From a virus: DNA of 48,645 nt. Position 1 is the first letter of the stretch. Every line of letters begins with the position of its first letter. Below, one piece after another: positions 2,122 through 40,481 of the stretch. The DNA lies in IMG/VR virus record IMGVR_UViG_3300046723_000152, positions 1 to 48,645 of that record; one strand, given 5' to 3'. The translations under genes were made by a program, and so were the position numbers. The notes beneath the pieces were generated by a model. That model was not told the DNA's origin, ran no database searches, and saw only the letters and a list, made by a program, of their open reading frames with translations.

Positions 2122-2522
2122 ACGCCCCGGCCAACATCAGGGCGATCAATCTCATGAAGGATAGGCCGCGCGCCTTCACCGCGGCCGAGAAGGCCCTGAT
2201 TGGCAAGGTGCACGGCTACATGCCGGCTCAGCAGCTGCTCGAGATCCTGAACGAACGCCTCGCCGCCGATCTCGGGCCCGACGAACCGCAGCACACCATG
2301 GAGCAGCTCTACGCGGAGATCGGAGACTCAGGCGCCATGCCCGCCGGCGGCCACGACTGGTCGAGCCTGCGCAAGCTCGTCGCGAAGGCGCGCCGCGATG
2401 GCGTGCTGGAGCGCGTCACGCGCCAGGTGATCGACGACTTCGCCGTCGTGTTCTCGCTCAACGCGCGCCAGGTCCTCAACCTCCATGATGTCCTGCTGAA
2501 GGCGAAGGACGCGGACGAATGA
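2118..2522 (+). CDS. Hypothetical protein, 134 aa
   Basis: No family recognised. The 134-residue product is mostly helical in appearance and soluble, with an HDWSSLRKLVAKARRDGV stretch near residue 75 that could pack as a winged-helix, and an acidic C-terminus. It is coupled by ATGA overlaps to the ASCH-like gene upstream and to the HerA-like ATPase gene downstream. By position it may assist that ATPase, but this is inference only. Confidence 0.6.
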   Translation: MNAPANIRAINLMKDRPRAFTAAEKALIGKVHGYMPAQQLLEILNERLAADLGPDEPQHTMEQLYAEIGDSGAMPAGGHDWSSLRKLVAKARRDGVLERVTRQVIDDFAVVFSLNARQVLNLHDVLLKAKDADE

Positions 2523-8953: not shown

Positions 8954-9285
8954 TGTTCACCCAGGCCGGCATCAACACGCACCCCGTCGCCGTCGTCTGC
9001 TTCGCGCGCGTATCGCGCAACAGGCGCGGCGGAGGCATGCGCTGGTGCTGGCTCATGCGCTGGGCGAGCGGCGACATGGCCTGGTGCTCGAGCACGATGG
9101 CGAGCTGGGGAGAGCAGGTGCACTTCCACAATGTGTTCGAGCTCGATCACGGCGTCTGGGGCCCGAGCTGGCCCACGGATCCGGCCGCCGGCGCGCGCCA
9201 TTGGATCGAGAAGGGAGTCGCGCCAGACGCGAACAGCTGGAAGGCAGAGCTGCAGGTCGAGGCGCTCCAGGAACAGCACGCGTGA
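8953..9285 (+). CDS. Hypothetical protein, 110 aa
   Basis: ATG at 8953 shares its A with the upstream TGA, and the stop overlaps the GTG of the DUF4224 gene at 9282. The product is rich in Trp, Arg and Met in its first half (RGGGMRWCWLMRWASGDMAW) and acidic later. No family recognised. Being wedged in a coupled operon supports that it is translated. Function unknown. Confidence 0.55.
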   Translation: MFTQAGINTHPVAVVCFARVSRNRRGGGMRWCWLMRWASGDMAWCSSTMASWGEQVHFHNVFELDHGVWGPSWPTDPAAGARHWIEKGVAPDANSWKAELQVEALQEQHA

Positions 9286-9533
9286 CGCCCTATCTCACCG
9301 ACGCCGAGATCGAGCACATCACCGAGCCTCTCACCCAGGGCGCAGCGCGGATCCGCTTCTTCGAAAAGCTCGGCTGCAAGGTGAAGCAGCGGCCGAATGG
9401 CCAGCCCCTCGTCGGCCGCGTCGAATACGAAGCCGTGATGACCAGCCGCAGGAACGCGCAGCTCCCGCCCGCCGCCGGCGAGCTCGTGCGCCCCGATTGG
9501 GCCAAGCTCCGAGCGGCTCGTCATCGAGCGTGA
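9282..9533 (+). CDS. DUF4224 family protein
   Basis: The 83-residue product begins with GTG at 9282, which overlaps the upstream stop. The pattern YLTDAEIEHITEPLTQGAA, then IRFFEKLGCKV and NGQPLV, is that of DUF4224. These small proteins are encoded in many phages just upstream of tyrosine integrases and are often guessed to be excisionase-like or integration cofactors. The integrase starts 295 bases downstream, which fits. The C-terminal tail (RPDWAKLRAARHRA) is basic. Confidence 0.75.
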   Translation: MTPYLTDAEIEHITEPLTQGAARIRFFEKLGCKVKQRPNGQPLVGRVEYEAVMTSRRNAQLPPAAGELVRPDWAKLRAARHRA

Positions 9534-26086: not shown

Positions 26087-26583
26087 TGATCGGCCTCGAT
26101 CGAGATATCGGACGTGTCCAGCCCCTCTTTCGTTGCGAGGCGCTCCTTCATATATTCGGCGGCCGCGACGACGGCAGAGCTCGCCTGCCCGTCCAATGCC
26201 GGGCGCATGAAAGGGTGCGGCGCTGCGCCTGGATGTACGACGCCCTCCACGATCTGGCCGTCCGGAAAGCGCAAGCCGTGTCCAGGCTGACCGCCGATGA
26301 AGTGCGCCTTCGTACCGTACTCGACCCATTTCGCGACAAACGCATGCGGGCCTGTGGCCTTGATATTGGCGGTCACGAGACCGCCCTGGGCGCGGGTACC
26401 GACCTTCAAGCCCGCGGCGAGCTCGCCAGACACCGAATGGATGCCTTGGCGCGCCGCCGGGAGCACGACCATCATGCCGGCGCGGAGCGCGCCGCGCATC
26501 ACGTTGCGCTCGACCTTTGGCGTGAGCTGGTCCAGGAACTCCTGCAGGTCCGATAGGCCTGTGACGTTGATGTCCTCGCTCAC
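26083..26583 (-). CDS. HK97 gp10-like neck/tail protein
   Basis: The 166-residue product starts at GTG 26583, overlapping the upstream stop. It has GLSDLQEFLDQLTPKVERN, then LRAGMMVVLPAARQ, a WVEYGTKAH strand and a C-terminal HPFMRPALD motif. This series is characteristic of the HK97 gp10 family, which acts in head-tail joining and tail completion. Confidence 0.85.
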   Translation of the reverse strand: MSEDINVTGLSDLQEFLDQLTPKVERNVMRGALRAGMMVVLPAARQGIHSVSGELAAGLKVGTRAQGGLVTANIKATGPHAFVAKWVEYGTKAHFIGGQPGHGLRFPDGQIVEGVVHPGAAPHPFMRPALDGQASSAVVAAAEYMKERLATKEGLDTSDISIEADQ

Positions 26584-26981
26584 GACGAATAGCGCTCGCA
26601 GAAGACCTCGATCATCGTTTTCCTGCCCTCCGCGGTCACCTGCGCCGGGCCGCCGATGATCTGATAGACGGTGTCGGCGTCGTCCCCGTGGACGGTGATG
26701 CGCATCGACGAGTCGATATCATCGCGATACCGCATCCGGATCCTGGCCTGGTTGCGAGCGATCACCGCCCCGAGGGCGATCCCCTCGGCGCGGCTCGGGA
26801 GAGATTCCTGCACCTCGGCCCAGGACTTGACCGCGGCCGAGGGATTCGATGGATCCCGATCCAATGGTGCCCAGGCGACCTTTTGCGTCCCGAACTTGGC
26901 ATCGTTTGTGACGAACTCGGGGTCGCCGGCGACGGCCTTCCGCTCGATCGTGATCTGCCGATCTAGAGCGCCTGCCCTCAC
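26580..26981 (-). CDS. Head-tail joining (head closure) protein
   Basis: The 133-residue product starts at GTG 26981, overlapping the upstream TGA as GTGA. It reads VRAGALDRQITIERKAV, WAEVQESLPSRAEG, ARNQARIRMRYRDDID and VYQIIGGPAQV, the standard signature of small phage head-tail joining proteins. It follows directly after the methyltransferase cassette, although the connector gene it normally neighbours is more than 5 kb away at 32113. Confidence 0.85.
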   Translation of the reverse strand: MRAGALDRQITIERKAVAGDPEFVTNDAKFGTQKVAWAPLDRDPSNPSAAVKSWAEVQESLPSRAEGIALGAVIARNQARIRMRYRDDIDSSMRITVHGDDADTVYQIIGGPAQVTAEGRKTMIEVFCERYSS

Positions 26982-28201
26982 GCTGCGATCCTCGGTTTCG
27001 CCGCGGCCGCACGGCGCCGCGCGTTGATCGCCTCGCTGCCTGCTAGGAGCACCAGCTCGTGCTCCCAGTTCGACGCCAGCGGCTCGACCTTGCCGAATAC
27101 CTCGCTCACCCACCGGATCCACTCGGAGCGCGTCAGCAGCGTCACATGCGCATTGCGGCCGTCCGGAAGCTTCGCGCGCGCGAGCTTGGTCGAGATCGTG
27201 AAGACCGCGGTCGCGCCCTTTTGCCTGACCTCGCCCAGAACGCGATCGACCCCGGACATCGGGATGTGCTCGAGCACGTCGCAGCAGAAGATGAGATCGA
27301 AGACCCCGGCCGGCATGCTCTTGAAGGTCGGGATCGCAGGGTCGTAGCGCGCGATCCTGCGCTCTCCGTCGCGCCAGAAGTGGGCCACCAGGTCGCTCCG
27401 GCCGCAGCCGTAATCCAGGATTGAGGCGGGCTGCAGATCTCGCACGATCTCTGCCACCGCGTCCAGATGCAGTTCGGCCGAGGAGCTCCCGTAATGCCGG
27501 CTGGCGTGGATCTCCTGGTAGGCCAGCAGGTGGTCGTGATAGTCCGGGAGATCCCGTTTAAACGCAAAGGCGCCGATCGCCTCGCGCCCGGCGGCGATCT
27601 CGTGATCGCTTCCCTCGAGGAACCTGAATCCGTGGAGCGCCATCCAGTCGACGAATCCGTTCCTGGTCCAGTAGTAAAGGTGCTCGCCCGGGCGATAGTG
27701 CTTCGAGGCCCTGATGCTCCTCAGGTCCTCGAAGATCGGGACTGAGGCAAAGAGTAAGGCGCCCTTCTTCACCTGCTGCAGGCGCAGCTGCGGATCCTCG
27801 AGGTGCTCGATGGTGTCCCAGAGGGTCACGGCATCGAACTGGAATGGGTCGTCCGCATACAGGCGTGCGTCTGTGAGCGCCTTCGCCGCCTCCGGGATGA
27901 CCTCGTAGCCCTTCGCCTCGAAGCCCGAGGCCTTCGCTTGAAGCAGAAACTCACCTGTTCCGGCGCCGACATCGAGCAGGCTCGCGCCCGCCGGCAGCTG
28001 GCGCTGCAGCATGGCGCAGCGGCCGGCGTTCACCGCCTTGGCGATCGCCGTCCCCTCGTAGGCCTGCACCTTCGCCAAGTACTCGGAACCGTAGAGCACG
28101 CGGCCTGCGCGCATATCTGCCTGGTAGGCTACGCCGTGGCGCTCGCAAAGCATCAGATCGGCGTCGACCTCGGCGTCCCAGCGCTTGATGAGTCTATCCA
28201 C
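26978..28201 (-). CDS. Tandem SAM methyltransferase, 407 aa
   Basis: Two class I methyltransferase domains lie in one chain. The first has motif I SLLDVGAGTGEF with LWDTIEHLEDP; the second has ASILDYGCGRSDL with FCCDVLEHIPM. Both look complete at the SAM-binding loop. The GTG at 28201 overlaps the end of the upstream gene. The C-terminus (AINARRRAAAAKPRIAA) is basic. Such proteins often methylate sugars or metabolites, and in this cassette a glycan target is the simplest idea. It is the last gene of the inserted block, coupled to the head-tail joining gene by GTGA. Confidence 0.75.
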   Translation of the reverse strand: MDRLIKRWDAEVDADLMLCERHGVAYQADMRAGRVLYGSEYLAKVQAYEGTAIAKAVNAGRCAMLQRQLPAGASLLDVGAGTGEFLLQAKASGFEAKGYEVIPEAAKALTDARLYADDPFQFDAVTLWDTIEHLEDPQLRLQQVKKGALLFASVPIFEDLRSIRASKHYRPGEHLYYWTRNGFVDWMALHGFRFLEGSDHEIAAGREAIGAFAFKRDLPDYHDHLLAYQEIHASRHYGSSSAELHLDAVAEIVRDLQPASILDYGCGRSDLVAHFWRDGERRIARYDPAIPTFKSMPAGVFDLIFCCDVLEHIPMSGVDRVLGEVRQKGATAVFTISTKLARAKLPDGRNAHVTLLTRSEWIRWVSEVFGKVEPLASNWEHELVLLAGSEAINARRRAAAAKPRIAA

Positions 28202-28802
28202 GCTTCGCTTCCCAGTAGGCGAGGCAGTCGAATTTCGCCCAGACAACTTCATTCTTCGGTAGCGAGTGCACAAGATTCCAGACCGCTGGCTGGAGCGGCC
28301 ACGCCTCATGGAAGAGCACGCGACCGCAGCGTTTCACCAAGTCGAAATCAGTCTGCGTGTCATTCGTGTGGTCGCCGTCCTGGTAGCAGAAGTCGAACTT
28401 CAGTCCCTTTACCACAGCAGCCTTGTGCGCGTTATCGTCTGCGTTGACGAAACGCAAATTCTTGATTTCCAGGTGCGCGATGATCCTGTCTCGCATCTTG
28501 ATGTCCTCGCCACGATCGCGCGTGACCCCGATCACCTCTTCGAAGTATTGCGACATGATCGCGGCCGTGATGCCGTAAAACGATCCGATCTCGAGGCAGA
28601 TTTTCCCGAGGAAGGTCGCTTCGCGGAGATCCACGAGGAAGCTCTCGAACTCAGCGCACGCGCTGCAGCGTCCGAATGCGGCTTTGCCGAACTGCCGCAT
28701 GATCTCCTTCATGAATGGCGATGCGAAGGGGCCACTCTTGATCGATTCGACATCGAGCGGCGTCTTCAGCTCGACGTCGGGCTGGATGCGCTCATTCAGC
28801 AT
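28194..28802 (-). CDS. Class I methyltransferase (Methyltransf_24-like)
   Basis: The 202-residue product starts at ATG 28802. It has KICLEIGSFYGITAAIM (SAM loop), a conserved acidic FDFCYQDGDHTNDTQTDFDLV block (DxDH type) and RCGRVLFHEA. This is the Methyltransf_24 pattern often found in sugar-modifying enzymes. It is similar in plan to the neighbouring 28796-29353 product (DFDLVKRCGRVLFH against DFELVKRCGRVLFH), so the two look like diverged tandem duplicates. It ends in TAG. Confidence 0.75.
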   Translation of the reverse strand: MLNERIQPDVELKTPLDVESIKSGPFASPFMKEIMRQFGKAAFGRCSACAEFESFLVDLREATFLGKICLEIGSFYGITAAIMSQYFEEVIGVTRDRGEDIKMRDRIIAHLEIKNLRFVNADDNAHKAAVVKGLKFDFCYQDGDHTNDTQTDFDLVKRCGRVLFHEAWPLQPAVWNLVHSLPKNEVVWAKFDCLAYWEAKRG

Positions 28803-29353
28803 GGCGCCGTCCACAAAGCGAAGATGTCCATCACCTGGATCTGCTCCTTCGGAAGTGCATTGACGAAGTCGTACACATGGTCCTGGCCGCGCACGCCGCC
28901 GCGGTCGTAGTCGTGAAACAGAACCCGGCCGCAACGCTTCACGAGCTCGAAGTCGTCCCGGATCCGCTCGTCATGGGCGCCATCGACGAAGGCCAGATCG
29001 AACTCGAGGCCCGCGACGACCCGCGCCTTGTCCTCGTCATCATCGACGAGGACGAGCTCCACGTTGGTCACGCCCAAGGACGCCCAGAAAGCCCTGCGAT
29101 CGAACTTCTCTCCCATCGCCTCGATCTTCCCGTGCACCAGGTCGATCGTGACCACGCGATCGCAATAGCGGGAGATCTCTGCAGCCGAGACGCCCTTGTA
29201 GGTGCCGATCTCGAGGACGGTGCCGTAACCTTTGCCCTCGAGGACTCGTTTAAACACGCCCGCGCCGCCGCGGATGTTCATGGCGCTTCGCTTCAGGACG
29301 CCGGCGCCGTGGATCTTGGCGATCCGCTCGCGCATCTCGAACTCGTTCAGCAT
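28796..29353 (-). CDS. Class I methyltransferase, paralogue of the next gene
   Basis: The 185-residue product has TVLEIGTYKGVSAAEISRY (SAM loop), VVTIDL and FDLAFVDGAHDERIRDDFEL, and then KRCGRVLFHDYD. This is the same architecture and partly the same words as the 28194-28802 product, pointing to duplication. Substrate unknown; in this cassette a sugar or lipid-linked glycan is plausible. Starts and stops overlap those of both neighbours. Confidence 0.75.
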   Translation of the reverse strand: MLNEFEMRERIAKIHGAGVLKRSAMNIRGGAGVFKRVLEGKGYGTVLEIGTYKGVSAAEISRYCDRVVTIDLVHGKIEAMGEKFDRRAFWASLGVTNVELVLVDDDEDKARVVAGLEFDLAFVDGAHDERIRDDFELVKRCGRVLFHDYDRGGVRGQDHVYDFVNALPKEQIQVMDIFALWTAPC

Positions 29354-29916
29354 GGAAGAATGTTCGCGGTCATTCCGCTGTCAACGTTGGTTTTCTCCGG
29401 AACGAAACCGACTACTGAAAAGCTCCACATCATGTCGCGCTCGCTTTGGATCACGCTCACGAAGCCGAGATCGCGCAGCATCTGGGCGACATCGTCAGGA
29501 CGGAAAAGGTGCAAATGCTTTCGACAGTTCTGCGGTCGCCAGTACGCCATGTCCGGATGCGGCAAAAACAGATAAAGCACGCCGCCGGCGCGCAGCCTGG
29601 TCTTCCAGTGCTCGATCGCGGCCACCGGGTTCGCGAGGTGCTCGAGGCAATGGGATGAAAAGACGTAGTCCCAGATGCCCTCAGGGAGAGCGCAGGCGTC
29701 TTTCCCGTCCGCCAGATCAATCGGGCGTGCGCCCTTCAGCGGCCATTTCCCGCATCCCACGTCCAGGCCGATCCCGCGGCAGAACTGCTTCGCGATCGGC
29801 TCGATGAACTGCATCGCGTTGCCGTGCTTCAGGTAGTCCGGATACAGCTGGCCGCGATATTCGAATAGTTCGACGACCTCGGAACCGATGTTCCGGTTTT
29901 TCACGACGGCGCTCAT
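29347..29916 (-). CDS. Class I methyltransferase (Methyltransf_11-like)
   Basis: The 189-residue product has GIGLDVGCGKWPLKGARPIDL (motif I), IWDYVFSSHCLEHLANP (motif II) and LRAGGVLYLFLPHPD. This combination is common in enzymes of glycan biosynthesis clusters. ATG 29916 overlaps the stop of the sialyltransferase-like gene. Confidence 0.75.
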   Translation of the reverse strand: MSAVVKNRNIGSEVVELFEYRGQLYPDYLKHGNAMQFIEPIAKQFCRGIGLDVGCGKWPLKGARPIDLADGKDACALPEGIWDYVFSSHCLEHLANPVAAIEHWKTRLRAGGVLYLFLPHPDMAYWRPQNCRKHLHLFRPDDVAQMLRDLGFVSVIQSERDMMWSFSVVGFVPEKTNVDSGMTANILPC

Positions 29917-30599
29917 GCGGCCGCCCGCGCCTGCATCAATCCGGCGAGCTTAGAATCGAATGTAATCGGGCGCGCGACTGAGTTTTCTCTAAGCCATTTC
30001 GCCTCAATCCCGGGCCGATGCCCAATCGGGTCCGACGGATCGCCGGCCTTCCAGCGCTCGTCGACATTGTGGATCCCGGAGCTGAAGAAGTCGAAGCCGG
30101 TCAGGTAGGCGTTCTTGGGCTCGCAAGCCAGCACGTCGAGAATCGCGGCGAACCCGGTCGACGGAATATGGCGCCCGAGCAACTCGAAGGATCTGAGGAA
30201 ATGCTCGACCGTCGGCACGAACGTATCGCAGAACCAGAAGCGCGTGGCCGCGCGCACCGAGTAGATATACCGGAAGTCGATCCCGGCCTGCTTGTAGTTG
30301 CGCTCATGCCATTCAGATTCCAGCGCTTTGGCGTCGGGGCATTTACACATGCAGAGTTGCACGCGGTCGTGCTCGAGCTCATCTCGAGTCTTCCGGATCG
30401 AATTGCCATAGAACGAATAGTGCACATCGCAACGCGCGCCCGCGGCCGCCCCCAGCTTGTAATTGTTGACCCGGATGACGACGTCGTGCGAGTCGATGAA
30501 GCCCGGGGTGTTCTCGAGAACGGAGGGCGCGCTACCGACGATCGCCACGCTCTTCCCGCGCAACCGCTCGGCGACCTCAGAAAAGCTCACGAAACGCAC
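29913..30599 (-). CDS. Glycosyltransferase family 29 (sialyltransferase)-like protein
   Basis: The 228-residue product starts at GTG 30599. KSVAIVGSAPSVLENTPG followed by DSHDVVIRVNNYKL is the sialylmotif-L-like signature of GT29 enzymes. IPSTGFAAILDVLACE and YLTGFDFFSSGIHNVDE fit the sialylmotif S/III region with a His. Bacterial and phage members may transfer sialic acid or another nucleotide-activated sugar; the donor cannot be read from sequence. It is embedded between a GT9-like gene and methyltransferases, all overlapping. Confidence 0.7.
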   Translation of the reverse strand: MRFVSFSEVAERLRGKSVAIVGSAPSVLENTPGFIDSHDVVIRVNNYKLGAAAGARCDVHYSFYGNSIRKTRDELEHDRVQLCMCKCPDAKALESEWHERNYKQAGIDFRYIYSVRAATRFWFCDTFVPTVEHFLRSFELLGRHIPSTGFAAILDVLACEPKNAYLTGFDFFSSGIHNVDERWKAGDPSDPIGHRPGIEAKWLRENSVARPITFDSKLAGLMQARAAA

Positions 30600-31359
30600 G
30601 CGTTGCTCCTTTGATTTGCTCTACCGGCCAGTCGTCCACGACCCAGCACGATGTGTCCTTGCTGAGCACTTTCTGCGGCGTGATGCTCGAGATGTAGTAA
30701 TGCCTAGCAGGCGACATTCCATCGGCCGCCCAAACCACAAGGAGCGGCTTGTCGAACATTTCGGCGAGCGGCACGCAGAATGAAACCTGCGCGACGAATC
30801 CGTCCGCGATCTTCCCCAGGTCCATGAGGTCAGACACGGAGGTGCCGCCGTTCAAGCTGATGTCGGCCTTGATCGGATAGACCTGCTCGGCCTTTCCGAT
30901 TTGCACCAAGAAGCAGCCATCCAATGCGGCCAGCGCGGCGTGGAACGCGGAACTGCTGGGCAACAGCTCGGCGCCAAATCCATCCTTGCGCTCCATCGGC
31001 GTGCGCCCGCCATGCACGATGACGATGGGGCGAGCATCGGCCTTCTCCTTGAGCCCTTCGACCAGTTTGTGATTGCGTACCGTCCAGTCGATCGATAGCG
31101 GGATATCGCTTCCGAGACCGGCGGAAATCGCCATGTCCTGAAATTGATTCGAGCCCTTAACCAGCTTGCGAGTGGTGTAATGCGCAAGCGTGGTCACCCC
31201 GAAGCGGTCGAACGGCTCGACCTTGACTTCAAGCCCAATGAAGGCATCAGGATAGTTGGAGCGAACGGTCACCGGCTCTCCGCCGCGCAGCATTTCCGCA
31301 GCTATGGAGCGCAGATAGAAACTGTCGCCCAAGCCTGAACCGGCGCGAATGATGTTCAC
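30577..31359 (-). CDS. Glycosyltransferase family 9 (heptosyltransferase)-like protein
   Basis: The 260-residue product begins MNIIRAGSGLGDSFYLRSIA, the N-terminal GDxxL loop of GT9-type enzymes. It later has ARPIVIVHGGRTP (second-domain nucleotide-sugar strand) and a FVAQVSFCVPLAEMFDKPLLVVWAA segment corresponding to the donor-binding region. Family 9 transfers heptose to lipopolysaccharide, but short phage members are uncharacterised. It overlaps the GT29-like gene by 23 bases. Confidence 0.65.
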   Translation of the reverse strand: MNIIRAGSGLGDSFYLRSIAAEMLRGGEPVTVRSNYPDAFIGLEVKVEPFDRFGVTTLAHYTTRKLVKGSNQFQDMAISAGLGSDIPLSIDWTVRNHKLVEGLKEKADARPIVIVHGGRTPMERKDGFGAELLPSSSAFHAALAALDGCFLVQIGKAEQVYPIKADISLNGGTSVSDLMDLGKIADGFVAQVSFCVPLAEMFDKPLLVVWAADGMSPARHYYISSITPQKVLSKDTSCWVVDDWPVEQIKGATRAFRELF

Positions 31360-31384
31360 GATTCCCCAAAATTGGCACAGTCTG

Positions 31385-32116
31385 TCAAGCGATAGCCTCC
31401 TCGAGCGTCATTTTCGGAAACGAGTCGATCGCCGAACGAAGATTGCAGTTGATGACCGTGATGCCGGCGGCCACGATCTCGCGCTCCGCGGCCGAGAAAG
31501 AGCGCCGCATGCTCTCGAAGAAAAGCTGCCACGGCACGCTGCGGGGGTTTTCCCCGAACCAATGGCTGCGCCCTGCCTCGTCTTGCGCGCCGTCGAATCC
31601 AAAAAGCAGGATCTTCTTCGCTCCGGCTAGGATCGCGAGATTCAGCGCCTGATATCCGCTGTTTCTTCCGGAAGCGAGCATCTTGGGATCGAGCGAGATC
31701 CCGCCGCCATGCTCGTCGCCCTGCGCCGCGCGCTTGCAGCGCAGGATGTGCACGCAATCATCGGTGATGTTCGATCCGCTCCACAGGAGGCTGCATTTCT
31801 GTCCGGCAAAGCTCGCGAACCTGGCCCGCACATTCTCGGCCGTCATGCCAATCATAGGACGCGCGATGCCGTCCGTCTGCCAGCGCCACCATTGCGAGTC
31901 GGCGAAATGGCAGACGTCCGCGTACGGCGCGAGCAGGTATGCGTCGTTCACCGCGATCGCCTTGAACGAGCTGGACCCGGTTCGGAGCCTGCCAACGTCG
32001 ACGAAGGCCTCGCGCGTGAGGCTCGGGCCGCCGGCGAGGATCGCCACGGTCGCAGCTTCCCACTCACGGACGACTTCGCTGAATCTCTCGCCCGGGATCC
32101 TGCGAAGGATGCTCAT
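31385..32116 (-). CDS. MptE/DUF115-like sugar-related protein
   Basis: The 243-residue product starts at ATG 32116, overlapping the connector gene's stop. It has ATVAILAGGPSLTREA (a GGPS loop), AIAVNDAYLLAPYADVCHFAD, GYQALNLAILAGAKKILLFGFDG and HWFGENP. This is the layout of DUF115/MptE-like proteins, which recur in bacterial surface-glycan clusters and in phages beside glycosyltransferases, plausibly transferring or handling activated sugars. It is the first gene of the inserted cassette. Confidence 0.65.
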   Translation of the reverse strand: MSILRRIPGERFSEVVREWEAATVAILAGGPSLTREAFVDVGRLRTGSSSFKAIAVNDAYLLAPYADVCHFADSQWWRWQTDGIARPMIGMTAENVRARFASFAGQKCSLLWSGSNITDDCVHILRCKRAAQGDEHGGGISLDPKMLASGRNSGYQALNLAILAGAKKILLFGFDGAQDEAGRSHWFGENPRSVPWQLFFESMRRSFSAAEREIVAAGITVINCNLRSAIDSFPKMTLEEAIA

Positions 32117-32769
32117 CCGATCCCGAGGTCGCCGCGCTCGCGGTCGATCAGATTGCATGCGGCCGCGACGAGCTTGTCCATCATGGCCGGATCGCGGTCA
32201 TAGTGAGCCTCGGCGTGCAGCAGGATCGCCTGCTTGAACTTCCGCGGGATAACGTCGACGTCCGAATATCCGGCCGTGAACTCGACCTTGAAAATACCCT
32301 GCGACCAATTGGCGCCGTTCTGCGGCAGGATCCGCGGCCAGCGAGAGAGTTCGTCCGCCAGGGAGAATTGATCGTCCGAGATGTCGGTCTCCGCGCGCGT
32401 CACTGGATCGATCGAAACGAACTTGTCGATCGAGATCAAAGGCGATCGGCGCAGCAGGAGATCTCCCGTGCGCGGGAACGTGAAGTCTCCCCAGAACGGA
32501 CCGTAGAATGGGCTGCGCACCGAATCTAGGACGAGAGGCCACATCCAGCCGCGGAAGTTGTCGATCGTCAGGCGCCATTGCTGCTCCATGAGCGCTCGGC
32601 TCGTCTCCGACTCCACCCATTCCCTCGCCGCGATCCCCAGATTCGTGATATAGCTGTCCTCGTCCGTGTTCGAGGCATACGTCCGCAGCTGAGCTTTCAG
32701 ATCCGTGAGCGTGACCGGCTCGTCGTCCGGATCCGCGATCCGCTCGAGCACGAATAGCGAGGTCCTCAT
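32113..32769 (-). CDS. Head-tail connector protein (gp6-like)
   Basis: The 218-residue product has EPVTLTDLKAQLRT (start of the connector fold), DSYITNLGIAAREWVE, SRALMEQQWRL and a C-terminal IPRKFKQAILLHAEAHYDRD, hallmarks of the HK97 gp6-like/YqbG connector family that binds the portal ring. The rest of the neck genes are displaced by the glycan cassette. Confidence 0.85.
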   Translation of the reverse strand: MRTSLFVLERIADPDDEPVTLTDLKAQLRTYASNTDEDSYITNLGIAAREWVESETSRALMEQQWRLTIDNFRGWMWPLVLDSVRSPFYGPFWGDFTFPRTGDLLLRRSPLISIDKFVSIDPVTRAETDISDDQFSLADELSRWPRILPQNGANWSQGIFKVEFTAGYSDVDVIPRKFKQAILLHAEAHYDRDPAMMDKLVAAACNLIDRERGDLGIG

Positions 32770-33980
32770 CGGAGCGCCACTGGGGCCGCCTTGCGCACTT
32801 CCTTCGGCGGCCGAAATCCGTCCCTGCCGCGCTTCACCATCAGCTTCCAGTCGTCAGAGGTCTCGGGCTCGCTCTGCGTCGCGCGCTCGCAGTGCCAGCT
32901 TGAACCGTTCCATGTGACGATGTCCCCTCGCTCATAGGCGCCAGGGGTCCAGACGTTTCGGTACTTCAGGATGTCGGTCTTGAGCTCGTGGACGACCTCG
33001 GCGCCGTTCGTGTATTTGCTCACGATCCGGATTGTCCTGCCCCCATCGGCCGACTCGATCGCCAGCGGCGCGATCCCGTTCATGCATACCGCCCAGCCCG
33101 CGCGCTCGAGTGTGAGCCCTTCGAGGGGATCTGTCTGGCGCAGCGCCCTGACCATACCGTTCCGATAGTCCGCGAAGGTTCCCCGCGGATAGCTGCGTTT
33201 CGAGTCGATTTCCGGCAGAGGCTCGATCTGCGCGGCGTCGCGACCATCGTCCCCGTCCTGAGCGCGCGGGAGTTTCGCCAGGGCCTTTTCTACGGTCTCT
33301 GCGACCAGCAGCGCGACCGACTCGTGGCTCGCGGGCTTCCCGTCCTGGCCCGGCGCGCCGTCCTTGCCGTCCTTCGGTTTGAGGATCTCTACGGCGTCCT
33401 TGACCCAGGACGCGACGTGCGACTTGAGCATGGCCATATCGACGCTGACGCCCGAATCTCCGCGCTCCCCCTTCTCGCCGTCCTTGGGCTTCGGGAGCTT
33501 TTCCACCTCGGCTCGCAGCGCGGTCATCAGGCGCTCCAGGATCGCCGCCTCATCCGCGCCGGGACCTCGCTCGCCCTTTTCCCCTGGCTCGCCCCGTTGC
33601 CCTTCCAGGGGCGCCGGCATAGCAGCCACGGCGCGATCGACCTCGGCCGCGACGATCCCTCTCAGTTGCTCCGGATCCGGCCCGTGGCCACGTTCGCCGC
33701 GCTCGCCGTCCTTGGGGCGCGGGATCTCGTCGACCAGGCGTTTCGCCTCGAGCACGAGCTTCGCGAGCAGCTGCTCGACGTCGACAGCGGGCTGGCTGTC
33801 GCCCTTGGGGCCAGGATCGCCGCGCTCGCCCTTCTGGCCTTGGCTCGCCGCCGGTAGGCTCCGGATCGCGAGTTCGAGCTCGGCGAGCTTCTTCGTAACC
33901 GGCTCGATCGCTTTTCCGACGTACATACGAACCGCCTGGATCAACCGGGCTGCGCGCGCCTCTGCCTGTCCCTTATCCAT
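32766..33980 (-). CDS. Collagen-like tail fibre with C-terminal carbohydrate-binding module
   Basis: The 404-residue protein has five or six short Gly-X-Y collagen segments (GQKGERGDPGPKG, GQRGEPGEKGERG, KDGEKGERGDSG, KDGKDGAPGQDG and others). They alternate with heptad-like helical stretches such as VEQLLAKLVLEAKRLVDEI, a trimeric fibre design. The C-terminal 90 residues include YERGDIVTWNGSSWHCERAT, a CBM5/12 chitin-binding-like module likely to contact surface sugars. It sits directly beside the connector gene. Likely a virion fibre. Confidence 0.8.
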   Translation of the reverse strand: MDKGQAEARAARLIQAVRMYVGKAIEPVTKKLAELELAIRSLPAASQGQKGERGDPGPKGDSQPAVDVEQLLAKLVLEAKRLVDEIPRPKDGERGERGHGPDPEQLRGIVAAEVDRAVAAMPAPLEGQRGEPGEKGERGPGADEAAILERLMTALRAEVEKLPKPKDGEKGERGDSGVSVDMAMLKSHVASWVKDAVEILKPKDGKDGAPGQDGKPASHESVALLVAETVEKALAKLPRAQDGDDGRDAAQIEPLPEIDSKRSYPRGTFADYRNGMVRALRQTDPLEGLTLERAGWAVCMNGIAPLAIESADGGRTIRIVSKYTNGAEVVHELKTDILKYRNVWTPGAYERGDIVTWNGSSWHCERATQSEPETSDDWKLMVKRGRDGFRPPKEVRKAAPVALR

Positions 33981-34296: not shown

Positions 34297-35421
34297 TCAG
34301 ATTTCCAGATTTCGTCCTTGCATCGGTACGGCGTACTCGCGATCCTCTGCCGGAATGAGCAACTCTCGATCTTGCGCAGAAATAAGCAACTCTCGATCCT
34401 GCGCCGAAATTATCAGCACGCGCTCAGGTGCAGGGTGGTCGAAATTGAAAACATTCTTGATGTCAAGGAAGAGTGTTCCCTGCCCGAAAAGAAGAGCCCG
34501 GGCAGCAAGCGCAAGCGATCCTTGCGCAATAAGCATTCCGGAGCCAGAAAGCGTCGATGCTATCTGGCATAGCTGCAAGAGCTTCGCGGAAAGGTTTCCC
34601 GTGCCAGCGAGCAAAGCGTTTCCGAACTTCTGCGGCAAGAGGTTGCTGGTCACCGAGCCGATACCCGGAAGCGTCGCCCGAACCAGAAGCAAGCCCGGCG
34701 CGTTCGCTGTCATGGCTCCTACGCCGCCAAGCAACGCGCTTATCGCGAACAATTCAAGAACTGCCGCGGAGAGCGTTCCGATTCCCGCCAGCGAGGCCGC
34801 GATCCCGATCCCTGCGCCGGGTACCTTCAAATCGGCGTTGATCGCGCCAAGGCCAGCTAGCGCCGACCTGATTTGCGCCAGCTCCAGCAGCGCGGCCGAC
34901 AAGCCGCCTGTGCCAGCAAGAAGTTCGATCAGGAACTTCTGCGGCAGAAGATTGCCGGAGAGCGAGCCAATCCCCGCTAGTGCCGCCTGCAGGGCGAAGA
35001 GCCCAAGCACCGCCGCGTTGATAGACCCGACACCGGGAAGCGTCGCGGATACCTGGAAGAGTCCAAGCGCGACAGCGTTGAGCGATCCTACGCCTGGCAG
35101 CGTCGCTGAAATCGCATAGAGCGCGACCACACTCGCAGACAGCGAGCCCGTTCCGATGAGCGTCGCGGCGATCTGCTGCGCCGCGCCGCCTGCGCTCGCG
35201 CGCAACGGAATGATAGTGTTCCACGCGGCCGCGCTCTGGAGCTTTACTTCCGTGTTCAGAACGAAGAAGGGCTGCCTGAACTGCGCGATCTCGACAAAGA
35301 GGTCAGCCGAGAGAGTCCCCACTCCAGCGAGCAACTGCACTGGGCGAAAGACCGCACCGGACGTGACGGCGACAGTCCCTACCGCCGTCTGGCCTGTAAT
35401 CTTAAATGTGGCGACGGCCAT
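34297..35421 (-). CDS. Period-20 repeat virion protein, 374 aa
   Basis: From about residue 88 to 318 there are twelve repeats of 20 residues centred on a GxG turn (for example ATLPGVGSLNAVALGLFQVS), interrupted once by a three-residue insert. The strictness suggests a beta-solenoid or stacked turn structure. A larger unit with LLPQKF recurs 105 residues later, showing recent segment duplication. The C-terminus carries three nine-residue repeats of the LLISAQDRE type. It lies in the fibre block and may be a fibre shaft. Family not established. Confidence 0.65.
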   Translation of the reverse strand: MAVATFKITGQTAVGTVAVTSGAVFRPVQLLAGVGTLSADLFVEIAQFRQPFFVLNTEVKLQSAAAWNTIIPLRASAGGAAQQIAATLIGTGSLSASVVALYAISATLPGVGSLNAVALGLFQVSATLPGVGSINAAVLGLFALQAALAGIGSLSGNLLPQKFLIELLAGTGGLSAALLELAQIRSALAGLGAINADLKVPGAGIGIAASLAGIGTLSAAVLELFAISALLGGVGAMTANAPGLLLVRATLPGIGSVTSNLLPQKFGNALLAGTGNLSAKLLQLCQIASTLSGSGMLIAQGSLALAARALLFGQGTLFLDIKNVFNFDHPAPERVLIISAQDRELLISAQDRELLIPAEDREYAVPMQGRNLEI

Positions 35422-35426
35422 TTATT

Positions 35427-35825
35427 TCACAGCGCCGTGAAGAGCGCAGAACCCACGGCGCACGTGAAACCGCTGAGCGAACTAGGCCGAGTCGCTGCGC
35501 TCAGCAGCCCCGCCCAGAGCATATTGCCGGCGCCGACCGCCTGCGTGTCCCACATCTGGTAGCCGGAAACCGTGCTCGCATACGTAATAGCGGAGTACGA
35601 AACGGTCGCGTTGTTGCTCTCTGAACCTCCCGGCGAGGCGCCGGCGCCGAACGCTATCGTGACTCGGGTGTAGCCGCTGCCCGTAGCCAGCTCGGAAGCC
35701 GAGACACTCGTCGGCGAACCGTACGAGAGCCCAAGCCAGTGCTGCGCGGGCTGGGTCGCCGCTGCGCCACCAAGCAGCCAATCGAGGCAAAGCTTCCGCG
35801 CAAAAACGGAAAGATTGTTCGCCAT
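35427..35825 (-). CDS. Phage tail fibre/virion protein, paralogue of 37847-38242
   Basis: The 132-residue product has ARKLCLDWLLGGAAATQP, LGLSYGSPTS, GYTRVTIAFGAGASPGGS and a GNMLWAGLL C-terminal strand. The 37847-38242 product has the same motifs in the same order, so these are duplicated genes of one virion protein family that I recall being annotated as tail-fibre-like. ATG 35825; the stop lies just before the period-20 repeat gene. Confidence 0.7.
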   Translation of the reverse strand: MANNLSVFARKLCLDWLLGGAAATQPAQHWLGLSYGSPTSVSASELATGSGYTRVTIAFGAGASPGGSESNNATVSYSAITYASTVSGYQMWDTQAVGAGNMLWAGLLSAATRPSSLSGFTCAVGSALFTAL

Positions 35826-35838
35826 GAGCTACCAAGGA

Positions 35839-36339
35839 TCAAAGCGGCTCGATCTTGATATGGCCGCCCATCGCGCCAGGCGTGCCGCCGGTGAACGCGT
35901 TCAGCGAGAGTTCCCCGAGAGACGCCGCGTTCCCGAGCAGACTCATGTCAGCCTCCTGCGCCGGCCGCCAGAGGATGACGCCGCCCCACGCATTGAACGA
36001 GAGGTTGAGCAGCATCCCAAGCGTCGCGCTGCGCTGCGGCTTTAGCGTCGCGGCCGCAACGTAGGGCAGCGGAGGCGCCGACAGCGCGGCGACGGCCGGA
36101 TCGTCGGCCGCCATCCTTGGCGCTGTGAGAGAGCCCGTCGCGATCTGCGAGGTACGACCGAAGACTAGGATAGTCGGAGAGTGCGCCGCCGCCTGGCCGC
36201 CCATGTATATCTCGGCGACGTTGACGCGCTGCGTGGACGATCCTCCACGAATGGTCAAGTGCGTATTGTCCGCCAAGTCCGCCGCGTCTGCCGCGGCAGT
36301 CGGAGTAAAAGTTGGGAGAGCTACCGTGAGCTTTGACAT
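35839..36339 (-). CDS. Hypothetical virion protein, 166 aa
   Basis: ATG 36339 has AGGAGA seven bases upstream on the minus strand; that site overlaps the TAG of the zinc-ribbon gene. The product has an ADLADNTHLTIRGGSSTQRVNVAEIYMG beta region and a C-terminal NLSFNAWGGVILWRPAQ. Its place among fibre genes suggests a structural role. No family recognised. Confidence 0.55.
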   Translation of the reverse strand: MSKLTVALPTFTPTAAADAADLADNTHLTIRGGSSTQRVNVAEIYMGGQAAAHSPTILVFGRTSQIATGSLTAPRMAADDPAVAALSAPPLPYVAAATLKPQRSATLGMLLNLSFNAWGGVILWRPAQEADMSLLGNAASLGELSLNAFTGGTPGAMGGHIKIEPL

Positions 36340-36349
36340 TGTGTTTCTC

Positions 36350-36670
36350 CTAGCCTGTTGAACTCTTCGCTGCTTTTTCTTGCAACTCCTCGATAACTCG
36401 CTCGAAAGTTTTGCACTCGCCGCCGCTCGCCATGAGGATCGCTGCGCACTGGTCGCAGAGGTAGCTCCTGCAGCCCTGGCATCTATAGCGCAGCGCCGTG
36501 CGCTCCCTGCGTATCACCACCACTGCCTGGCAGTGCTTGCACGAATACGTCGGAGCCTCGAAGAACATTCCGCGACCCATCGGCATGCCGCGAGACATTC
36601 CCTCCGGCAGCCCAGGGCTATCGCGGTGGTCTACCATGAGGTAACCCTCTTTTGCGCGCTCTGAGGTCAT
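36350..36670 (-). CDS. Zinc-ribbon-like small protein
   Basis: The 106-residue product has CKHC, CQGC and a CDQC pair within a YSCKHCQAVVVIRRER... block, enough cysteines for two zinc sites, followed by a helical tail. The start may be ATG 36670 (overlapping the previous stop) or ATG 36637 (MVDHRD). The gene ends in TAG. Function unknown; similar small cysteine proteins recur in phage structural operons. Confidence 0.6.
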   Translation of the reverse strand: MTSERAKEGYLMVDHRDSPGLPEGMSRGMPMGRGMFFEAPTYSCKHCQAVVVIRRERTALRYRCQGCRSYLCDQCAAILMASGGECKTFERVIEELQEKAAKSSTG

Positions 36671-37845
36671 AGCGCGAACATCGACTGCGGCCTGATCGTG
36701 TTCGGGGGCACCGTTATGGGGTCAATCTCTGTGACCTGCAGGTCGTTCGTGATCGCCGTCCCGTTGCCGCTGAACCAGAGCATCTTGCCGGTGAATGCGG
36801 CATATACCAAAGAGCGGAACGGCTCCGTGGTGACATTGCCGCCATCCGCGTATGCCGGCGGCGTATCTCCGGTCAGAGTAATGGCATCAACTGTCGCAGT
36901 GCCTGCCCCGTGGTTCACGACCAACCGCTCGAGAGTCAGGCCGCCTGTATCCTCGAACCGGTAGAACTTTCCGTCTGGCGGGTAGAAACACCAGATAGTT
37001 CCGTTCGGATTGTTCAGCGCACCGGTAACCGTCAGATTTTTCCATCCAGACGTCACCGCACCCAGGTCAAGCGATCTCAGCGTATTAGCGTTCGAATCGT
37101 GGTAGACCATGATGCGATTGGTCGTGTCCAGCATCGCAACGCCGCCCGTCATGGTGCTGGGAAAACTATAGTTCGCCGACGTAGTGAAGGTGTTGCTGCC
37201 TCCGGCAAGATCCAGGTAATGAAGCTGCTGAAAATTGTGGAAGTCGGTCGTCAGGCTGTAAATCTTCTGGTCGCCCACATCATAGAGCGCAACTCCGTTG
37301 CCTTGCGACGATGAGAATGCATCATTGACGCTCGCAGTGAACCTCGTATACAGACCTGTGGCGCAGTCAAACGCGTGGCATCCGCCCGACTGATCCGACT
37401 GCTGGCACGTCGACTGCCTGCACAGGTAGAGGATCGTGCCCTTGGTGCCGACATTGATCGCAACTGCGGTCGCGTAGGGGTGCGTCGGGCTAGGAACTGG
37501 CCCCGTCGGTCCGGTCAGCTCGAAGTAGGGCGCACCGCTGGTACTGGCATCAGACCAGTCAGCGGCGGCACCTGTGCTGTTCAGCTCGGTAAAACCGCTG
37601 TTGACGCAGGCAACGAAGTGGAACTGATTGTCGTCGTAAGACCAGATCAGCGCGCCGAGGTTGCTTGCCGAGAGGTGGCCACCGGTGCACACCCACACCA
37701 TGGCCCCCTTGGTGCCGTAGTATGGATTCCAGACACCTGAGCCGAACGCGCCAAAGCACGTCGCGGCCCAGTTGCCTGCGCTGTGCGTTGCTGTCGGGCG
37801 AACGCTCTCGCTGCTGTTGGTAGCGAGAAACCTCGAAATCGGCAC
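36667..37845 (-). CDS. Putative beta-propeller receptor-binding protein, 392 aa
   Basis: Starting at GTG 37845, the product has repeating beta-strand blocks: AMVWVCTGGHLSASN, GTILYLCRQ, QKIYSLTTDF, NRIMVYHDSNAN and GKFYRFEDTGG. Each is near-periodic and ends in a turn, consistent with a six- or seven-bladed propeller. It lies between the two tail-fibre paralogues, so a host-recognition role is plausible. Confidence 0.6.
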   Translation of the reverse strand: MPISRFLATNSSESVRPTATHSAGNWAATCFGAFGSGVWNPYYGTKGAMVWVCTGGHLSASNLGALIWSYDDNQFHFVACVNSGFTELNSTGAAADWSDASTSGAPYFELTGPTGPVPSPTHPYATAVAINVGTKGTILYLCRQSTCQQSDQSGGCHAFDCATGLYTRFTASVNDAFSSSQGNGVALYDVGDQKIYSLTTDFHNFQQLHYLDLAGGSNTFTTSANYSFPSTMTGGVAMLDTTNRIMVYHDSNANTLRSLDLGAVTSGWKNLTVTGALNNPNGTIWCFYPPDGKFYRFEDTGGLTLERLVVNHGAGTATVDAITLTGDTPPAYADGGNVTTEPFRSLVYAAFTGKMLWFSGNGTAITNDLQVTEIDPITVPPNTIRPQSMFAL

Positions 37846-37846
37846 G

Positions 37847-38242
37847 TCAGGCGAGTGAGATCGTCAGCGCCCCGGACGCGAGAACCAGCGAGTCGCCCGA
37901 AGCGACAGTCCGCGCCGTAGCGAGCAAACCGTACCAGAGCAGATTCCCAGAACCGCCCTGAAGCACCGTATCCCATATATTGATGCCCGAAACAGAGGCA
38001 GCGGTGGTGAATGAGTAGGTGAGCGCCGACGCATTCGTCACCGAGCCTCCGGGCGACGCGGCGGCACCGAACGCCATCGTCTGGCGCGTGTAGCCGAAGG
38101 TCGTCGCGATCTCCGAGCCAGAGGTGCTGGTCGGTGATCCAAGCGAGAGCCCGATGGCGCGCGTGGTGGGCTGCGTCGCCGCCGCACCGCCGAGCACCCA
38201 GTCGAGCATCAGTTTTTCAGCAAACGCAGAAATTGCAGCCAT
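37847..38242 (-). CDS. Phage tail fibre/virion protein, paralogue of 35427-35825
   Basis: The 131-residue product has AEKLMLDWVLGGAAATQP, IGLSLGSPTSTSGSE, GYTRQTMAFGAAASPGGS and GNLLWYGLL, mirroring the 35427-35825 protein throughout. Duplication of the gene with intervening fibre genes suggests two related attachment points or fibre types on the virion. The TAG of the GT9-like gene lies seven bases before its ATG. Confidence 0.7.
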   Translation of the reverse strand: MAAISAFAEKLMLDWVLGGAAATQPTTRAIGLSLGSPTSTSGSEIATTFGYTRQTMAFGAAASPGGSVTNASALTYSFTTAASVSGINIWDTVLQGGSGNLLWYGLLATARTVASGDSLVLASGALTISLA

Positions 38243-38248
38243 GATCGC

Positions 38249-39361
38249 CTACCCCCGTTGCGTTGATAAGATTTGCTTCACCGTCTCTATCACCTGCTCT
38301 ACAGAGATGTCGCTGATGCAGGCCGCGCCGTTCTTGTCGCGGTTCGGCACGCACGTCGTTCCATCGTCGTGGAGACGGTGGCACGGCCAGCACGGCACTC
38401 GCCCCTGATCGGCGTGCAGCGTGGTGGTGTTCTTCCAGTATTTCGTGATGTTGTCTTCGCTCGCGTGCGAGAGCAGCATCACCTTCGGCATGTCGCGCCT
38501 GGCGACGGCCCACATCGGACCCGTATCGGGGCCAACCACGATGTCGCACGCCTGCGCCTGCACGCACACCCTGCGTATTCCCCAGTTCGGATTGGCTGGA
38601 TCGGCCGAGAGAGCTAGATGCAGCCCCTTCGAAGAGCCGAGATTCTTCTCGACCTCTCCCTGGATAAGACGCGCGTGCTCGAGGTCCTTACCCGGCGCGC
38701 CCATCATAATGACGGGGATGCCAGTTTCCTTGAGCAGCTTGGTGATGATTATGTCGGCCTGCGGATGGACTTTGTCGAGCCTGGTGCCAGTGATAACCCA
38801 CCCGATCACCGGCCCATCCCCTGCGACCTGTCGCTTCGTCTCCTGCGCCTTGGCAACTTCCTCATCGGTGGGAAAGAAGTTTGGATCTATCTCCTCGTAT
38901 GGAACCTCGCAGATGTCGTGCACGATCTCAAGGTAGCTCTTGGCCGACATCTTTCGCCGCATCGAAGCAGGCCACCAGAACGGAGACTGCACTTTGATGA
39001 AGGCGCCAATCGTCTCGCACGAGTGCGAGAGGTTGGCGAAGAATGCGTACTCCTTGGCGCGACTCTGGAACCAGGCCTGCCACGAATGGCCGTCGCCCCA
39101 GTTCGGGTCTCCTGGATCCCGCACACCGAGCTTATTGATGAACGGGTTGTTCTCGAAGACGACGTGCGCAGGCTTGGAGGTCATCACCTCCACATTGCCG
39201 AACCTGCGCTTCAGGCCGGGCAGCACCGACGAAGCGATGATGTTGTCGCCGACTCCGCCCATGCGGCAGATCATCGCCCACCGCGCGACGTCGGACTTCG
39301 CGGCAATCTCAGGCTCTCTGATCTGCTGCGCGAAGTCGGCGGAGACAACATTTACGCTCAA
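38249..39361 (-). CDS. Glycosyltransferase family 9-like protein, 370 aa
   Basis: The start is probably TTG 39361, which overlaps the FkbM-like gene's stop. The product has MGGVGDNIIASSVLPGLKRR (GDxxxA loop of GT9), VIGWVITGTRLDKVHPQAD, VIMMGAPGKDLEHARLIQGE and the C-terminal ACDIVVGPDTGPMWAVA donor-binding motif of ADP-heptose-type transferases. A late cysteine group (VPCWPCHRLHDDGTTC) follows. With the FkbM-like gene it forms a second sugar-modifying pair, inside the fibre block. It ends in TAG. Confidence 0.8.
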   Translation of the reverse strand: MSVNVVSADFAQQIREPEIAAKSDVARWAMICRMGGVGDNIIASSVLPGLKRRFGNVEVMTSKPAHVVFENNPFINKLGVRDPGDPNWGDGHSWQAWFQSRAKEYAFFANLSHSCETIGAFIKVQSPFWWPASMRRKMSAKSYLEIVHDICEVPYEEIDPNFFPTDEEVAKAQETKRQVAGDGPVIGWVITGTRLDKVHPQADIIITKLLKETGIPVIMMGAPGKDLEHARLIQGEVEKNLGSSKGLHLALSADPANPNWGIRRVCVQAQACDIVVGPDTGPMWAVARRDMPKVMLLSHASEDNITKYWKNTTTLHADQGRVPCWPCHRLHDDGTTCVPNRDKNGAACISDISVEQVIETVKQILSTQRG

Positions 39362-40209
39362 TGCAGCGTCTCCGAGAGAAGCTCGACCCTTGGAAGATCG
39401 CACGGCATCTTCTTCTCCTCCGGCAGGCACAGCATGTTGATGCTCACCGTGCTGCCGTAATCATTGATCTCGTTCTTGTTAAAGTTCTGCGGGTTGAAAA
39501 GCGCAGGTAGGTGCCAATATATCGCGTACCCCATGAGGCGAAGCTGCGCAATCAGCGCCGCCTTCTTCTCCTCGCGGTCATTCTCCACATAGAGCACCGG
39601 GCGCAGCCTCTTGATCGTCTGCGCCGCGCCCTTCAGAACGTCGCCCTCCATCCCCTCTACGTCGATCTTGATCAAGTCGCAGCGCACGAAGTTGCAGCCA
39701 TCGAGTGTCTGCACCTGCACCGGTTCTCCGACATCCTTCGCGAGAGAGACGGCGCCGAAATTGCCGGGCGCAGCGTAGTCGATGGGCGGCACATAGGCGA
39801 TTCCAGCCTCCGCTCCGAGCGCCATCCTCTCGGCAATGACATTCCAGATTCCATTGATGGCCAGGTTGCCGCACAGCATCTGGTGGATGATCCGCTGCGG
39901 CTCGAACGCGAAGACGCGACCGGCATTCGTGACGCACTGCGCGAGCGCGAGCGTGTGGCAGCCGATGTTGGCGCCGACCTCGACGACAATGTCCCCGGGC
40001 TTCACATACCCCTGCAGAACCCTGGACTCGTCCTCGGCATACTCACCGTAGCGCTCCAGCGCCCCGCCGAGGTAGAAGTCATGCGGAAAGAATGCCATCA
40101 GTCCGTAGCGGCACTTTCGAATGTGGATCTCGGCGCGAGGCTGTTGTTGTTTCTCTTGCGATGCCGCGCCATCTGCTTTCAGCGAGGCGCTGATTTGAAA
40201 CTCTGACAC
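39358..40209 (-). CDS. FkbM-family methyltransferase
   Basis: The 283-residue product starts at GTG 40209 behind AGGAGA. GDIVVEVGANIGCHTLALA (SAM loop), GRVFAFEPQ and DLIKIDVEGMEGDVLKGA are the diagnostic FkbM motifs. These enzymes usually O-methylate sugars, often on polysaccharides or glycoconjugates. With the downstream GT9-like gene it forms a pair that could decorate fibres or host surface sugars. Confidence 0.85.
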   Translation of the reverse strand: MSEFQISASLKADGAASQEKQQQPRAEIHIRKCRYGLMAFFPHDFYLGGALERYGEYAEDESRVLQGYVKPGDIVVEVGANIGCHTLALAQCVTNAGRVFAFEPQRIIHQMLCGNLAINGIWNVIAERMALGAEAGIAYVPPIDYAAPGNFGAVSLAKDVGEPVQVQTLDGCNFVRCDLIKIDVEGMEGDVLKGAAQTIKRLRPVLYVENDREEKKAALIAQLRLMGYAIYWHLPALFNPQNFNKNEINDYGSTVSINMLCLPEEKKMPCDLPRVELLSETLH

Positions 40210-40229
40210 TTTGGTTCTCCTATTTTTGG

Positions 40230-40481
40230 CTACGCTCGGCTCCAGATGCCGTCCTGCAACGTTCCGCGCCATTCGTCATCGCCTTCGCCTAGCACCAGAG
40301 GCTGCGAGACAGTTATGCTGCCGTCCGCGTTCTCCTTCACCCGGTCTGCAGGCAAGGCATCGACCACGTGATGAGGCATGCCAGGCGGCTTGCCCATCCA
40401 TATTCCATCGACTAGGCCGTAATCGCCCGGCATGAACTTGCTTTCCCCATTGTTGCGCCTTCCCTTTATGTTCACAGGCAT
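40230..40481 (-). CDS. Hypothetical protein, 83 aa
   Basis: The start is taken as ATG 40481, 12 bases after GGAGGAGG, rather than the GTG that abuts that site. The product is small and charged (NIKGRRNNGESKFMPGDYG..., ending WSRA) and the gene ends in TAG. It lies between the Tat-signal gene and the FkbM-like gene. No family recognised. Confidence 0.5.
   Translation of the reverse strand: MPVNIKGRRNNGESKFMPGDYGLVDGIWMGKPPGMPHHVVDALPADRVKENADGSITVSQPLVLGEGDDEWRGTLQDGIWSRA

Follow-up and report, generated by a model that had tools for sequence, protein, structure and literature searches.

Glycosylation of the virion has so far been documented for a few mycobacteriophages. In Che8, Rita and cluster O phages, glycosyltransferase genes lie by an O-methyltransferase gene, and two reports (PMC11600133, PMC11256854) say that these enzymes modify capsid and tail-tube proteins. 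A second described system is Maf, the flagellin O-glycosyltransferase. According to PMC11339370, its PF01973 domain is the Maf_flag10 domain, Maf attaches nonulosonic acids to serine or threonine residues of flagellin, and the C. botulinum enzyme accepts the cytidine monophosphate (CMP)-activated sugar CMP-KDO; according to PMC4065374, Maf acts in the cytoplasm prior to export. Here we analyse a cassette of seven genes for glycosyltransferase-like and methyltransferase-like proteins in the IMG/VR virus record IMGVR_UViG_3300046723_000152, whose 48,645 bases we call the window. Its best explanation, which we hold with modest confidence, is that a virion protein undergoes Maf-like O-glycosylation in the cytoplasm and that the glycan, built from host nucleotide sugars, is methylated. 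If this is right, the cassette would work like virion glycosylation in mycobacteriophages, with which we compare it by description only. Those phages differ in having other hosts, and Maravista carries the genes near the 3' end of its genome and not in the neck operon.

The cassette and its enzymes

The window has the layout of a temperate siphophage. It carries a tyrosine integrase, a terminase, a fused protease-capsid gene and a portal, followed by neck and tail genes that include Ne1 (phrog_5, E 2.3e-18). The cassette and its flanks are, in order of transcription:

32766..33980, minus strand, collagen-like protein whose C-terminal region is CBM5/12-like, encoded between portal and Ad1; considered as acceptor, without support from co-occurrence
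32113..32769, minus strand, Ad1-type head-tail connector, left flank of the cassette (phrog_442, E 4.4e-16)
31385..32116, minus strand, lead glycosyltransferase, predicted to be Maf-catalytic-domain-like, 243 amino acids (phrog_4603, predicted structure)
30577..31359, minus strand, short GT9-like glycosyltransferase, GT-B, 260 amino acids (structure model matches GT9)
29913..30599, minus strand, GT29-like (sialyltransferase-like) protein, 228 amino acids (sub-threshold Pfam match and invariant residues)
29347..29916, minus strand, methyltransferase (Methyltransf_23, E 3.3e-11)
28796..29353, minus strand, methyltransferase (Methyltransf_24, E 1.1e-7)
28194..28802, minus strand, weak Methyltransf_24-like protein (E 0.012), paralogue of the 28796..29353 protein with 38% identity
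26978..28252, minus strand, two-domain methyltransferase (two Methyltransf_23 stretches, E 1.2e-23)
26580..26981, minus strand, Hc1 head closure protein, right flank (Phage_HCP, E 2.6e-12; GTG start at 26981 from translation)

Seven open reading frames thus run from Ad1 to Hc1, as the original prediction had it for positions 26978-32116, and the enzyme kinds that it named (three glycosyltransferase-like and four methyltransferase-like proteins, one of the latter with two domains) agree with the Pfam, PHROG and structure matches. Its range for the sugar genes proved too narrow, however: the head-neck operon holds two more upstream, nine in total. Continuous overlap, another of its claims, applies to the cassette junctions (4 to 59 nucleotides, nt) with one exception, the lead and GT9-like genes being 25 nt apart. 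The GT9-like and GT29-like genes overlap by 23 nt, the GT29-like and first methyltransferase genes by 4 nt, and the next two methyltransferase junctions by 7 nt each; the last overlaps by 59 or 8 nt, depending on whether the two-domain methyltransferase starts at ATG 28252 or at GTG 28201. The overlaps also run into the neck genes at either end, as had been claimed, with 4 nt shared by Ad1 and the lead gene (ATG at 32116) and 4 nt by the two-domain methyltransferase and Hc1. These coupled junctions support the reading of the cassette and neck genes as one operon. Promoter and terminator scans were uninformative (1 promoter against 3.0 expected, 16 terminators against 11.3 expected).

Phage DNA can carry glycosylation, and DNA or a small molecule might be proposed as the acceptor. 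We consider this highly improbable: the position of the cassette in the late structural operon speaks against it, and none of the scanned window proteins was recognised as a hydroxymethylase or another enzyme of base hypermodification.

The lead protein matches the phrog_4603 profile, named 'alpha-2,3-sialyltransferase', with an E value of 3.1e-32. Despite that name, its predicted structure places it closest to Maf and not to a sialyltransferase. An AlphaFold2 model built from 17 relatives (predicted local distance difference test score, pLDDT, 91.7) had Magnetospirillum Maf (5mu5) as its top PDB match in Foldseek (E 2.3e-5), and VIA-align superposed 195 residues onto Maf residues 256-511 with a Z of 16.7 and a root-mean-square deviation of 3.3. 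Scores were lower for Cst-I (Z 11.7), archaeal HPPK (11.6) and human ST8SiaIII (9.8). The window protein and Maf thus appear to share the fold of the central catalytic domain, and 13 of 15 relatives of the lead protein reach E<=0.01 against PF01973, with 1.5e-7 as the lowest value. Profile searches of PDB by sequence gave weak matches only for the Maf-like, GT9-like and GT29-like families.

The second cassette protein is, on its model, a compact enzyme of GT9 fold. The model (pLDDT 91.5) aligned with Z of 16.8 to 3tov and 1psw and of 15.6 to TibC, whose structure is labelled heptosyltransferase in the match list; TibC glycosylates a protein. The GT-B fold is shared with TibC, WaaF and WaaC (Z 14.8-16.8), from which the window protein differs in its shorter length and an identity of about 10-12%. 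It has no Pfam (PF01075) or PHROG match, and one of 11 relatives matches PF01075 (E 0.0034); these relatives were taken from the neighbourhoods of other genes, as a single-sequence search of viral contigs confirmed none.

The third protein resembles the GT29 sialyltransferases. Three of 11 relatives match PF00777 at E<=0.01, and D36, R43, N45, P146, T148, G149, H177, H194 and E199 are invariant across 11 rows of the family; we take the resulting DxxxxxxRxN, PxTG, H177 and H194-x4-E199 to be sialylmotif-like. Each half of the two-domain methyltransferase is matched by a PHROG of its own, phrog_6564 or phrog_24759. In a relative (L002:8492-9382) the second methyltransferase domain is replaced by a cysteine-rich, zinc-ribbon-like tail with no Pfam match, which to our eye recalls the Lar-type restriction-alleviation proteins. 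The cassette genes are conserved under purifying selection, with ratios of nonsynonymous to synonymous change (dN/dS) among computable pairs of 0.05-0.40 in the glycosyltransferase genes and 0.01-0.19 in the methyltransferase genes; several of the synonymous distances come close to saturation or exceed it.

Recurrence and position in related phages

Relatives were sampled as the best 80 of 153, the best 80 of at least 568 and the best 80 of at least 594 matches, and because only the best-scoring 80 of each list were taken, the loci are biased to close relatives. The 258 loci fell into 214 clusters (30% shared 25-mers); leaving out 129 without a portal or without Hc1/Ne1 in the stretch gave 85. 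The lead gene was present in 45 of these 85 non-redundant loci, all with a portal and downstream Hc1 or Ne1, and absent from 40; in the portal-only sample it was present in 14 of 33 and absent from 19. A scan with the GT29-like protein alone picked out 12 viral contigs whose versions are 57-72% identical to it. Among all fetched loci the GT29-like gene occurs in 23 non-redundant contigs, in 21 of which the GT9-like gene directly precedes it. One relative (L002) has the same gene order at the same place as the window, with one methyltransferase fewer.

The predicted insertion between connector and head-tail joining genes was borne out for the window and for 19 of the 45 lead-gene loci, but it is one of several slots. 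Elsewhere the first lead gene lies between the collagen slot and Ad1 (15), portal and Ad1 (6), Hc1 and Ne1 (2) or the collagen slot and Hc1 (2), or before the portal (1). That the two flanking genes are normally adjacent was also correct: the distance from the end of Ad1 to the end of Hc1 had a median of 349 nt (320-1639) in 39 loci that lack the lead gene, versus 4443 nt (1507-9465) in the 19 with the lead gene in that slot. The cassette is not at this site in, among others, Salmonella phage FSL SP-016, Enterobacteria phage PPompW_132418, Stenotrophomonas phage SOVA965, Rhizobium phage RHph_X2_26 or Moraxella phage Mcat1, all with related portals. On a portal tree (a quick tree, two long branches flagged) at least 15 changes of state were counted for the lead gene, 8 for its slot and 7 for the GT29-like gene. 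In the lead-gene-only sample, portal or neck genes lay on the same strand in the fetched flanks of 65 of 67 non-redundant contigs and on the opposite strand in none; in the other two the lead gene alone was recognised. The cassette is an accessory module that moves within the head-neck block.

Two arrangements stand apart. In one locus (L183:6360-8338) a PAJU2-like trio of lead gene, ORF011-like gene and methyltransferase gene is placed further upstream than is usual, between the capsid and portal genes. In another (L017:2161-6103) Hc1 splits the cassette, with GT9, GT29 and methyltransferase genes before it and the lead gene after it.

The GT29-like gene was also found in prophage-like loci on two contigs of betaproteobacterial metagenome-assembled genomes (MAGs), which suggests, without proof, that the hosts of window-type phages are betaproteobacterial. 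Sampled genomes of that class yielded one strong match for each family, GT29-like in 369 genomes and lead in 274, both in a MAG already found; the GT29-like search added three weak partial matches.

More distant sets led by phrog_4603 occur in Pseudomonas phages PAJU2 and IME307 (ORF010-012) and in the Dolichocephalovirinae of Caulobacter and Brevundimonas, whose lead genes are homologous to that of the window at 28-29% identity; the regions fetched showed no GT29-like gene. Between Hc1 and Ne1, PAJU2 has three such genes, of which the first is the lead gene and the last codes for a methyltransferase; it also has a relative of the window's collagen-slot protein, and differs from the window in its shorter set and other slot. 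In CcrColossus, an unrelated phage, the gene just before the lead homologue codes for a large tail protein that matches CBM5/12 below threshold, and a methyltransferase and a glycosyltransferase annotated as family 9 accompany the homologue. The lead gene family is thus already catalogued and the three PAJU2 genes are public, with no function that we found reported; in the open-access literature we found no paper connecting a Maf-like phage gene with virion glycosylation.

The depositors of PAJU2 labelled ORF010, the lead homologue (AP009624.1, 7780-8349 in our locus L265), 'structural protein'. Their original record gives this label to 4 of the 24 genes of the first 22 kilobases: ORF003 (capsid), ORF010, ORF015, which is the major tail protein by RefSeq annotation, and ORF023. 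The label could reflect detection in virions. A transferase inside a virion would be unusual.

The same label could be read to mean that the lead protein is itself a virion component, either a carried enzyme or a Maf-fold structural protein, whose target is the particle itself or the host infected next, and a gene whose slot varies among the neck genes yet stays in the head-neck block would fit. We think this quite improbable. The lead gene travels with other transferases and with methyltransferases, among which the GT9-like gene so regularly precedes the GT29-like gene, and this suits a pathway better than a structural part; its absence from 19 of the portal-sampled loci means that it is not needed for assembly.

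The acceptor and the proposed pathway

As we propose it, the accessory late-operon module would glycosylate a virion protein and methylate the glycan. Ahead of assembly, and still in the cytoplasm, the Maf-like lead enzyme would set the first sugar on serine or threonine of a subunit of the capsid, neck, tail or fibres, from a CMP-activated donor that would be CMP-Kdo or a host CMP-nonulosonate. The GT9-like and GT29-like enzymes would extend the glycan, the former perhaps using ADP-heptose, and the methyltransferases would cap its hydroxyls; the use to the phage would be altered adsorption, stability or recognition of the particle. Gram-negative hosts produce CMP-Kdo and ADP-heptose for lipopolysaccharide (LPS), so the phage would need no donor-making genes. 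The proposal in its most specific form is tentative: a Maf relative O-glycosylates the phage's own virion subunits via host CMP-Kdo and ADP-heptose, the glycan is methyl-capped, and the module has been repeatedly gained and lost in the head-neck operons of HK97-like phages with Gram-negative hosts.

The original prediction had left a choice between a glycan on virion proteins and modification of host sugars, and the Maf match favours the first. The second is the main rival. Towards the end of infection the enzymes would alter sugars on the surface of the host (LPS core), such that released progeny do not stick to debris or infected cells are closed to superinfection. Late expression would suit this, the GT9 fold is that of LPS heptosyltransferases, the fold of the lead protein is also Cst-I/CstII-like, and soluble, cytoplasmic core-LPS transferases exist. 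We nevertheless regard it as unlikely. Gtr-type O-antigen conversion employs a membrane flippase and membrane glucosyltransferases, whereas none of the nine sugar-gene proteins has a transmembrane-like stretch (maximum Kyte-Doolittle 1.36, 19-residue window). Moreover, the cassette is kept inside the portal-neck block and not with lysogenic-conversion genes, and the model of the lead enzyme is closer to a protein glycosyltransferase than to the LPS sialyltransferases (Z 16.7 for Maf against 11.7 for Cst-I). Strong GT29-like and Maf-like relatives are rare in genomes of the suggested host class, so that these genes were not observed to belong to any common LPS locus of the host. Four things speak for a virion protein as the carrier of the glycan: the fold resembling Maf, the absence of membrane proteins, the constant company of head-neck genes and the 'structural protein' label in PAJU2.

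The collagen-like neighbour was proposed as the acceptor because the lead gene often follows it; co-occurrence gives this no support. The collagen-like gene is present in all 33 complete portal-sampled loci, 14 of which have the lead gene, and so its presence, with or without the cassette, is uninformative on the acceptor. No collagen-like copy was detected in 6 of 31 other lead-gene loci. Independent pairs on the portal tree showed no association between the collagen-like and lead genes, the trait hardly ever differing, and collagen runs were not significantly longer with the lead gene (p 0.072). The window's collagen-like protein is 96% identical to its relative in another locus (L008:1813-3036), against 57-89% for the cassette and Ad1 proteins, which points to mosaic exchange of head parts. 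Ser+Thr content offers a candidate pointer to the acceptor, and only a lead: with the lead gene it is higher in the capsid (mean 0.149 vs 0.137, p 0.0012) and lower in the portal (p 0.0012), both uncorrected for relatedness or multiple tests.

The presence of the collagen-like gene in every portal-sampled locus and its lack of association with the lead gene weigh against glycosylation of a virion protein, and so do several further points. The lead protein scores 21.2 bits against MptE-like (PF01973), for which the curated cut-off is 34.6; its family consists of single-domain proteins of 243-257 amino acids that lack the other two Maf domains, and no flagellin is involved. With these two defining features missing, the cassette is not Maf by membership. 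Nor is it GT29 by Pfam, since the GT29-like protein scores 21.1 bits (E 2.3e-4) against Glyco_transf_29 (PF00777), below the cut-off of 23. None of the scanned window proteins was recognised as an enzyme of nucleotide-sugar synthesis, and the use of host donors is something we infer, as is the choice of a virion protein rather than the host surface as acceptor. Finally, the PAJU2 label, for which no basis is stated, might mean a non-catalytic role.

Upstream sugar genes and wider meaning

The two further sugar genes of the operon sit between the portal and fibre-like genes:

39358..40272, minus strand, FkbM-family methyltransferase, same operon, upstream (Methyltransf_21, 2.9e-14, above cut-off; phrog_8156, 3.5e-23)
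38249..39430, minus strand, second GT9 glycosyltransferase, same operon, upstream (Glyco_transf_9/PF01075, 24.8 bits against a cut-off of 22)
37847..38242, minus strand, paralogue of the 35427..35825 protein, next to the upstream pair (phrog_240, 4.8e-17; paralogy from shared relatives)
35427..35825, minus strand, Gp80-like (podophage GP4 fibre I) protein (Pfam PF23140, 3.4e-19)

The second GT9 protein has a 72% identical relative (L116, 64-1095) whose gene immediately precedes a Gp80-like gene, the arrangement also seen in the window. At 34297-38242, between the portal and the collagen-like gene, the window holds a block of fibre-like or uncharacterised genes that includes the two Gp80-like paralogues, a 392-residue protein for which neither a family match nor a relative in the fetched loci was found, and a 374-residue protein built of repeated 'LAGIGSLSA'-like units.

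PAJU2 is a cultured relative of the window-type phages, in which the cassette is open to direct testing. If our explanation is true, such cassettes would be a source of compact protein O-glycosyltransferases with methylating partners. Furthermore, a recurrent, Maf-like-led cassette carried in their late operon by phages with links to Gram-negative bacteria would suggest that glycosylation of the phage particle extends far beyond the mycobacteriophage cases.

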